The notes beneath the pieces were generated by a model that was not told the origin of the DNA, did not search any database, and worked only from the letters and a program-made list of their open reading frames with translations. Positions 13,489 to 14,751 of a stretch of 64,000 bases of DNA are shown piece by piece. This DNA is from Lachnospiraceae bacterium (GTDB lineage Bacteria; Bacillota; Clostridia; Lachnospirales; Lachnospiraceae), in contig CAJTDX010000003.1 of the NCBI GenBank assembly GCA_910575155.1, forward strand, positions 62,001 through 126,000, in the 5' to 3' direction. Every line of letters begins with the position of its first letter. The stretch's first letter is position 1. The position numbers and the translations under genes were made by a program.

Positions 13489-13527
13489 AAAAAACGCAAC
13501 ATTTTGCTGGCAAATGTTGCGTTTTTT
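13489..13527. terminator. Bidirectional terminator formed by the left inverted repeat
   Basis: A-tract (13489-13494), CGCAACATTT, 7-nt loop TGCTGGC, AAATGTTGCG, T-tract (13522-13527). The stem is symmetrical, so it has a run of six T on both strands. On the minus strand it would stop transcripts from the recombinase gene and from the sigma-28 promoter at 13541-13567. The minus-strand T-tract lies outside the invertible segment; the + strand one lies inside it. Confidence 0.85.
13495..13521. repeat. Left inverted repeat / probable recombination site (IRL)
   Basis: Core GCAACATTT-TGCTGGC-AAATGTTGC (13496-13520). It matches the reverse complement of 14236-14260 at 23 of 25 positions, including the whole 7-nt spacer. 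Paired 9-bp arms around an asymmetric 7-nt spacer is the standard layout of a tyrosine-recombinase crossover site. The two sites are inverted relative to each other, so recombination would invert the DNA between them. Confidence 0.85.
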
Positions 13528-13540
13528 GTTTACACAGATT

Positions 13541-13567
13541 ATATCGGCGTTAATTATAAATTCTTTA
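13541..13567 (-). promoter_or_regulatory. Sigma-28 (SigD) flagellar promoter facing away from flagellin
   Basis: On the minus strand: TAAA (13567-13564), 15-nt spacer, GCCGATAT (13548-13541). This equals the SigD consensus TAAA-N15-GCCGATAT at every specified position. The predicted start is near 13533. In the present orientation the transcript would run about 10 nt and then meet the terminator hairpin at the left inverted repeat, with no gene downstream on that strand. After inversion it would drive csrA-flagellin. Confidence 0.85.
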
Positions 13568-13624
13568 TAGATAAAAAAATTTTTTTATTTTTCTTTTTGA
13601 TTCTTAGAAAAAGCAAAGGTCTGT

Positions 13625-14206
13625 TTATAAATAAATCCCCATAAATACTTCGTCTTTGTCATCCTGTTCAATGCAGAGATAGCGTTTTGTAATCTGATAG
13701 GATGAATGATTGAAAATATCCATGATCAGGGCGGGCGGCGTGCCGTTTTTCCATGCGTAATAGCCGAAAGTTTTCCGCAGAGAATGACAGCTTATATGTT
13801 CCGGCAACTTGGTGTCAACGGCAGCTTTTTTGATGATGCGGTAAGCCTGACAGCGGCAGATAGGGTGCTTTCGGTTTTTTTGGCTGTTGAACAGATAGTC
13901 TTCTTTCTGGCAGCCGTTTTTGGATATGCGAAGAGGTTCTAATGCCTGGATCACGGCATGATTCAGGGGAATGACGGTGCTTTTTCCTGTTTTTTGTTCT
14001 TGCAGATACAAATGTTCCAGATATTGGTGAGTGTCAAAATCGTAGACCATCTCCCAGGTGGTTTTCAGAATGTCGCTGATGCGCAGCGCAGTATTCAGTC
14101 CGAAAATAATCATTGCGTAATTTCTGGGATTTGGATGCGTGTGCAGGTAGTAATTTTTGAATTCTGTAAGTTGTCCGGGTTTGCGGATGGGTTCTGTTTT
14201 GCTCAT
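13625..14206 (-). CDS. Tyrosine recombinase (FimB/FimE-size DNA invertase)
   Basis: 193 residues from the ATG at 14206, preceded by GGAGG with 8-nt spacing; a longer frame starting at 14242 would begin inside the right inverted repeat and has no ribosome site. All six catalytic residues are visible: R42 (ALRISD), K72 (EQKTGK), H141 and R144 (HSLRKTFGY), H167 (FNHSS) and the nucleophile Y176 (KRYLCI). It lacks the N-terminal core-binding domain of phage integrases, which is also true of the fimbrial switch recombinases. It is flanked by its probable target sites and transcribed away from csrA. In the present orientation its mRNA should end at the left repeat terminator, about 100 bp after the stop. 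Confidence 0.92.
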   Translation of the reverse strand: MSKTEPIRKPGQLTEFKNYYLHTHPNPRNYAMIIFGLNTALRISDILKTTWEMVYDFDTHQYLEHLYLQEQKTGKSTVIPLNHAVIQALEPLRISKNGCQKEDYLFNSQKNRKHPICRCQAYRIIKKAAVDTKLPEHISCHSLRKTFGYYAWKNGTPPALIMDIFNHSSYQITKRYLCIEQDDKDEVFMGIYL

Positions 14207-14235
14207 TTTTTGTTCCTCCATTGTTTCTTTATAAT

Positions 14236-14260
14236 GTAACATTTGCCAGCATAATGTTGC
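14236..14260. repeat. Right inverted repeat / probable recombination site (IRR)
   Basis: Reverse complement of the left repeat with two mismatches: arms GTAACATTT and TAATGTTGC around the spacer GCCAGCA. It lies between the recombinase start (14206) and csrA (14302). A TATAAT at 14230-14235 on the + strand has no good -35, and a minus-strand TTGCAA-N18-TACATT overlaps the repeat and may be the recombinase promoter; both are weak calls. Confidence 0.85.
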
Positions 14261-14598: not shown

Positions 14599-14662
14599 TA
14601 ATGCGAAGCTAACCTAGGGGTTTCGTTTATTATAAAAGGTTTGCAGAATCTGCACACCGTCG

Positions 14663-14751
14663 CTGTCTGGAAGTTTTCAGACAGAACCAATGAAATTTAA
14701 TATTGCAGCTCCCGGGAACGGATTCCCGGGTGAACTTTAAACACACGGAGG
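14663..14751 (+). promoter_or_regulatory. Flagellin leader with CsrA-type binding hairpins
   Basis: Two strong hairpins precede the flagellin gene. Hairpin 1: CTGTCTG (14663-14669) / CAGACAG (14678-14684), with GGA at the stem-loop border. Hairpin 2: CCCGGGAA (14711-14718) / TTCCCGGG (14723-14730) with the loop CGGA. The Shine-Dalgarno ACACGGAGGT (14743-14752) contains a second GGA. GGA in a hairpin loop plus GGA in the ribosome site is the known two-site CsrA target layout of the Bacillus subtilis hag leader. No clear sigma-28 promoter lies between csrA and this leader. Confidence 0.75.

Follow-up and report, generated by a model that had tools for sequence, protein, structure and literature searches.

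A probable invertible sigma-28 promoter cassette with its own tyrosine recombinase upstream of an accessory csrA-flagellin operon in Lachnospiraceae

Introduction

What does a small recombinase gene do when it lies between two inverted repeats directly upstream of a flagellin operon? This arrangement occurs in a 64,000-nucleotide stretch of a Lachnospiraceae bacterium genome (assembly GCA_910575155.1, contig CAJTDX010000003.1, positions 62,001 to 126,000), here termed the window. The original prediction, made from the letters of the window, proposed that the segment inverts and renders the flagellin phase-variable, with the recombinase residing inside its own switch.

Several known switches offer a frame of comparison. 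In Salmonella, the hin gene lies inside the invertible segment, the Hin-flipped promoter needs sigma-28, and FljA acts on the fliC mRNA. FimB and FimE are small tyrosine recombinases of about 200 amino acids that flip a promoter, and the fim recombinase genes lie outside their segment; the catalytic set of tyrosine recombinases is R-K-H-R-H-Y. The Hin-flipped promoter is described as driving a flagellin together with a repressor of the other flagellin, FljA being called a transcriptional repressor (PMC10399903), and the Hin segment as 966 bp long (PMC5903667). A further study describes a 154-bp flagellar switch in C. difficile, bounded by 21-bp repeats, located upstream of flgB and flipped by RecV (PMC5386303). 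For B. subtilis, it is reported that CsrA covers the Shine-Dalgarno sequence of the hag mRNA, with a high-affinity site in the leader (PMC6529632).

Results

Architecture of the segment

The features of the locus are collected in Table 1. The two 25-bp inverted repeats agree at 23 of 25 positions and hold the identical spacer in opposite orientation, exactly as originally predicted. Allowing up to three mismatches, the site pattern was found at just two places in the window and in none of 100 dinucleotide shuffles; a search across the entire 4.19-Mb genome returned the same two places alone, with a backwards control of 0. The left repeat forms the core of a perfect palindrome with a calculated folding energy of −20.2 kcal/mol for the leftward and −17.6 kcal/mol for the rightward RNA, which also receives a terminator score in a terminator scan and looks like a terminator-like element.

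Table 1 Features of the segment and the adjacent operon in the window.
Feature	Position	Strand	Remarks
Palindrome	13489..13527	.	16-nt arms, 7-nt loop, A/T tracts; looks terminator-like both ways; includes left site
Left (distal) recombination site	13496..13520	+	spacer TGCTGGC at 13505-13511
Sigma-28 (FliA/SigD type) promoter motif TAAA-N15-GCCGATAT	13541..13567	-	points left, away from csrA-fliC
Tyrosine recombinase, 193 aa, within segment	13625..14206	-	PF00589, E 1.4e-24
Recombinase ribosome binding site GGAGG	14215..14219	-	read from sequence
Right (proximal) recombination site	14236..14260	-	spacer at 14245-14251; csrA side without T tract
Accessory csrA, 98 aa	14302..14598	+	PF02599, E 1.4e-15
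Leader hairpin CCCGGGAA-CGGA-TTCCCGGG, GGA in loop	14711..14730	+	putative CsrA-type binding site
Flagellin Shine-Dalgarno GGAGG, second GGA	14747..14751	+	read from sequence
Flagellin, 552 aa	14761..16419	+	PF00669 and PF00700

Just inside the left repeat and facing the left site we identified a perfect sigma-28 promoter motif, called with the consensus as we take it to be; nowhere else in the window does the motif occur without mismatch at a 15-nt spacing. It is the main addition to the idea of an invertible regulatory segment, as no promoter had been named before. Inverted sites of equal spacer around a promoter are the arrangement of an inverton, as far as the DNA can tell, and both the motif and its position within the segment fit a Hin-like flagellar promoter. 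Since this promoter faces away from the operon and the left palindrome resembles a terminator, the window as assembled looks to be in an OFF state. The genome encodes FliA (264 bits against a cut-off of 189.6) and contains, 165 bp upstream of the flagellin of its main cluster, a TTAA form of the same motif; Pfam matches place fliW, csrA, fliD and fliS beside this flagellin.

The recombinase gene falls between the two sites and its open frame retains all six catalytic residues, in line with what had been read from the letters. Residues R42, K72 (K75 likewise), H141, R144, H167 and Y176 were invariant in 60 of 60 aligned sequences including that of the window, after 5 of the 65 matching loci had been left out as broken or cut. 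Domain match and catalytic residues place the enzyme among the PF00589 tyrosine recombinases, and thus outside the serine recombinases of the Hin-fljBA kind. Membership of the FimB/FimE-type invertases was rejected, based on 40.9 of 221 and 53.6 of 222 bits with PRK09870 and PRK09871, two NCBIfam "tyrosine-type DNA invertase" models that we take to represent the FimB/FimE kind.

Pfam likewise bore out the predicted order of csrA and flagellin beside the segment, both on the plus strand. The csrA gene product scored under the NCBIfam CsrA cut-offs (32 of 73 and 26.7 of 70.1 bits), and across the genus the accessory csrA genes reached 50.8–66 bits compared with 78–91 bits for the canonical ones. 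A canonical fliW-csrA pair is also present in the window's own genome.

Modules with site pairs recur across the genus

The genus search for CsrA yielded 49 accessory csrA genes, spread over 21 of 29 genomes with between 1 and 7 in each; we examined every one of them. An inverted site pair matching at 21 or more of 25 positions accompanied 44 of these 49 loci, 43 in the OFF and one in the ON orientation. Of the remaining five, three had one site (L084, L099, L109), one was cut by a contig end (L103) and one matched at 19 of 25 positions (L098). Together with 8 pairs from other genera of the family, the 44 genus pairs made up a set of 52, from which L098 (19/25) and L109 (19/25, judged spurious) were excluded. 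Up to six modules with site pairs were found per genome.

The central 5 nt were the same at both sites in all 52 pairs, compared with 54 of 2652 between-locus comparisons, and the central 7 nt in 48 of 52. The 52 modules held 38 distinct spacer cores; none of 10000 permutations equalled the within-pair identity, a figure uncorrected for shared ancestry. Because the pairs had been chosen by similarity over 25 nt, we ran a selection control, which gave an expectation of 38.1 mismatch-free cores among 52 by luck and p = 2e-8 for all 52. Within single genomes, 50 of 51 module pairs differed in their core. These data bear on an alternative in which the left palindrome does no more than terminate transcription and the right repeat resembles it by chance. 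Its terminator score would suit such a palindrome; core identity in every pair of the census and the empty result of the 100 window shuffles contradict it, so that we rejected this explanation, whose probability we regard as negligible.

A search for the promoter-plus-site pattern returned 46 matches in 21 of the 29 genus genomes against a backwards control of 0, 4 of the 46 resembling chance by eye. In a family-wide search the pattern matched 57 times, in 54 of 397 genomes, and its backwards control 15 times, on account of which most of the 57 are to be read as chance matches. From these, nine loci with palindromic arms, besides the window, were chosen by eye: eight contain a csrA module, and the ninth (L118) is truncated where its contig stops. 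One more palindromic locus, G182:C31, showed no recombinase, csrA or flagellin match.

The promoter motif keeps its place within the segment

For the comparison between modules, the motif was relaxed to T[AT]AA-N15-N[ACT]CGATAT after the first loci had been inspected. In this form it was present inside the segment without mismatch in 48 of 52 modules and with one mismatch in the other 4. The distance from the motif to the centre of the facing site was 29–36 nt in 49 of 52 modules, the exceptions being 26 nt, 49 nt and a false automatic position in L115, where the assigned distance of 548 resulted from a false tie and TACA-N15-ACCGATAT is seen by eye beside the distal site. Between the proximal site and fliC, none of the 47 modules scored had a zero-mismatch sigma-28 motif, and two had a one-mismatch form.

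Distribution of the recombinase

The recombinase lies inside the segment in 35 of 52 modules, 33 reading away from csrA, which is the window's type, and 2 towards it; one of the 33 (L116) is broken. In 6 modules it lies outside the site pair, and in 11, with segments of 143–729 bp, none was found in the fetched stretch. Where none was found nearby, the segment could be inverted by a recombinase acting in trans. A recombinase match below E 1e-50 was present in each of the 21 genus genomes that possess an accessory csrA and absent from the 8 that do not, a comparison that ignores relatedness and uses a line set after the values were known; 3 of these 8 have weaker paralogues at 1e-26 to 1e-43 (G012: 1e-43). 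Furthermore, recombinase identity correlated with that of the site arms (Spearman 0.379, n=34, 0 of 2000 permutations), uncorrected for shared ancestry. Three other loci (L087, L088, L089) carry recombinase homologues in two frames with stops, beside seemingly intact promoter motifs.

Several modules can lie on separate contigs of one genome, and the shortest segment with a recombinase measures 0.7 kb. Both observations would suit a mobile element, a recombinase flanked by terminal inverted repeats that would insert next to flagellin genes without any part in regulation. We rejected this explanation and judge it highly improbable: 17 of the 52 modules keep site pair and promoter with the recombinase outside or not found nearby, the promoter-to-site distance is nearly constant, and the window's genome holds just two sites.

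Orientation and terminator asymmetry

The promoter points away from csrA in 51 of 52 modules (OFF) and towards it in one, L106 (ON). The original prediction had named a fixed orientation in all related strains as evidence against inversion; the relatives come close to it, and L106 breaks the pattern. This locus is orthologous by position to the OFF locus L097 of a different species, with conserved flanks: an upstream reading frame is 80% identical over 368 aa and the csrA-fliC DNA 80% over 1037 bp, whereas the promoter stretch, 88% identical over 108 bp, lies on opposite strands relative to csrA. Neither site of L106 is a perfect palindrome. Exchanging its inner arms, as inverting back would do, restores at the distal site GCAACATTA-TGCTAAA-TAATGTTGC, which is again a perfect palindrome; nine of nine arm positions are paired at the distal site in 39 of 51 OFF loci. 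We take this arm swap as the apparent trace of a crossover inside the spacer. As no recombinase was found in the 7.2 kb fetched around L106, the sole ON example belongs with the promoter-only modules rather than with the self-encoded type.

The two sites of a module are asymmetric. The 8 nt past the outer arm contain on average 5.4 T at the distal and 2.25 T at the proximal site, with more T at the distal site in 50 of 51 OFF loci. Likewise, the hairpin facing the promoter averages −21.5 kcal/mol in the OFF state compared with −11.5 kcal/mol at the predicted ON junction, and is more stable in OFF in 50 of 51.

This one-sided picture also suits a relic that inverted once in the lineage and is now locked OFF here, its operon silent or read from another promoter. 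Besides the 51 modules oriented alike, the window's two sites differ at 2 of 25 positions, and broken relatives exist, namely L116 with its disrupted recombinase and L045, where the proximal site, csrA and the greater part of fliC are gone. Against it, the window's recombinase frame is open with every catalytic residue kept, spacer cores are identical within loci while differing between them, and the stretch between proximal site and fliC contained, as described above, a zero-mismatch sigma-28 motif in none of 47 modules and a one-mismatch form in two. We regard a locked segment as unlikely. The predicted inversion and phase-variable flagellin are supported by the shared spacer cores, the sigma-28 motifs and the L106/L097 pair; the single orientation of 51 of 52 modules speaks against them.

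When the flanks of 33 modules were scanned for sigma-A promoters, the best scores equalled those of shuffled sequence and offered no explanation of the OFF bias. The OFF excess may reflect a rare ON state, at most one of several modules being ON per cell, or a biased switch; many of the genomes are drafts, and consensus assembly hides minor orientations. We also inspected contig ends at 14 loci. That of L103 (G009:C49) falls inside the proximal site just past the spacer, as an assembler might stop where both orientations coexist, and at L122 the contig stops 17 nt beyond the distal arm; nothing comparable was seen at the remaining loci, and this weak indication was not counted as support.

Flagellin leaders contain GGA-loop hairpins

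We scored the 41 flagellin leaders whose gene start was located and for which 160 nt or more of upstream sequence was available, among them that of L114, a FlgL-like locus. A GGA-loop hairpin with at least five Watson-Crick pairs was present in 37 of the 41, compared with 3.6 expected after shuffling that preserved base composition alone. The stems vary while the loop is constant, as in CGCAAA-CGGA-TTTGCG versus CCCGGGAA-CGGA-TTCCCGGG. The main-cluster flagellin has a TGCAGC-ATGGAA-GCTGCA hairpin plus GGAGG in its leader. Flagellin L113 showed no GGA-loop hairpin in its leader; no start could be placed for L111, a third flagellin.

The window (14611-14640) and L106 (5390-5430) resemble each other in a short element around AACCTAGGG that follows csrA and may represent a conserved leader structure.

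A search against Rfam yielded no convincing hit, the best at E 0.1 and under the gathering score.

Related loci

Two loci, L051 (G004, ~5974) and L053 (G007, ~6089), combine a similar recombinase, sites and a sigma-28 motif between divergent genes and have no csrA. The promoter points at a polysaccharide deacetylase with cell-wall-binding repeats; on the opposite side lies a Big_2-domain protein in L051 and a frame with a sub-threshold transglutaminase match in L053. Flipping could exchange one of these surface proteins for its opposite number.

In the window's own genome, two stretches of ~180 bp between 40-nt inverted repeats (L042:6493-6672 on contig C49 and L043:2222-2400 on C86) lie just upstream of two recombinase paralogues of 42–43% identity. 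Their spacers, TTATTGA and TTATAGA, are each equal on both sides of their own locus, and the stretches are probably further invertible segments.

The truncated locus L045 (G028:C31, 5863-6870) is syntenic to the window and keeps recombinase, promoter motif and distal site; the start of its recombinase abuts a 3' flagellin remnant, and either a deletion or a misassembly could account for the arrangement. In another genome, L071 (G010:C11) and L109 (G010:C71) hold one copy each of the same 25-nt site on two contigs, one with recombinase and promoter and the other with its copy ahead of csrA-fliC; a segment of great length or a rearrangement may lie behind this. Lastly, around a promoter-plus-palindrome unit at L124 (G013:C1:155865-155914), the 8.5 kb fetched contained no match to csrA, flagellin or a recombinase.

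Discussion

Our analysis indicates that the segment 13496-14260 is very probably an invertible sigma-28 promoter cassette that includes the gene for its own tyrosine recombinase and turns an accessory csrA-flagellin operon on and off. This reading builds on the sites, the identity of their spacers, the promoter motif, the terminator-like asymmetry, the conservation of the module and one apparent ON/OFF orthologous pair, all taken from DNA, and from these we infer inversion in the window's species, transcription and a role for CsrA.

In the proposed mechanism, the recombinase would bind the 9-nt arms and exchange strands in the spacer, which would have to match at both sites. In the OFF state, as assembled, the promoter would read left into the distal site, where palindrome and T tract would end the transcript, and no other sigma-28 promoter is visible ahead of csrA-fliC. 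Upon inversion the promoter would face right, across a site no longer able to terminate strongly, and csrA-fliC would be transcribed with the help of the motility sigma factor. The accessory CsrA could then act on flagellin leaders with GGA hairpins, that of the main cluster included, and thereby balance or exchange filament types.

The module shares with Salmonella hin-fljBA a promoter, here putatively invertible, before a flagellin operon and the recombinase inside the segment, which spans ~740 bp here and 966 bp there. The Salmonella operon includes a repressor of the other flagellin, and here csrA precedes fliC in what may be a repressor role, CsrA taking the place of FljA. Hin is a serine recombinase, in contrast to the tyrosine recombinase with its short spacer found here, and related genomes hold up to six such modules.

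With C. difficile Cdi4/RecV, the module has in common a tyrosine recombinase, inverted repeats of 21–25 bp and flagellar genes downstream (PMC5386303, PMC5903667). As these sources describe, the C. difficile segment forms part of the leader of the early flgB operon, and cwpV is a further target of inversion by RecV, whereas the genes here are csrA and flagellin, the sigma-28 promoter of one flagellin operon would invert, and the recombinase usually lies within the segment. The recombinase resembles FimB and FimE in its small size, but its gene lies inside the segment, unlike in fim, and its scores with the invertase models are far under the cut-offs. Unlike the CsrA of the FliW-CsrA-hag system of B. 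subtilis, the accessory CsrA here sits inside the flagellin operon, behind a putative DNA switch. Taken together, the module joins features of the Salmonella and C. difficile switches and belongs to neither; the best reading is a phase-variable flagellin module working like hin-fljBA, with a tyrosine recombinase and CsrA. We found no description of a Lachnospiraceae csrA-flagellin switch in the open-licence literature, and inverton surveys (PhaseFinder) may list such loci in their supplements.

The presence of up to six modules in related genomes points to a repertoire of switchable flagella. It is an evenly balanced proposition that this constitutes a Lachnospiraceae flagellin repertoire of an origin independent of Salmonella hin-fljBA. 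A genome would have up to 7 accessory csrA genes, the majority in flagellin modules with an invertible sigma-28 promoter, nearly every module having its own spacer, and the site doubling as the OFF terminator. In such a repertoire the accessory CsrA of the ON module might mute the other flagellins, which would leave one filament type at once.

In gut Lachnospiraceae, flagellins are a strong target of the immune system. Should many species maintain more than one switchable flagellin, with a separate site for each and frequently a separate recombinase, consensus genomes would mostly display the OFF state and hide the flagellin that the host meets. The textbook arrangement of Salmonella would then have originated twice, the second time with a different recombinase class and a different repressor.
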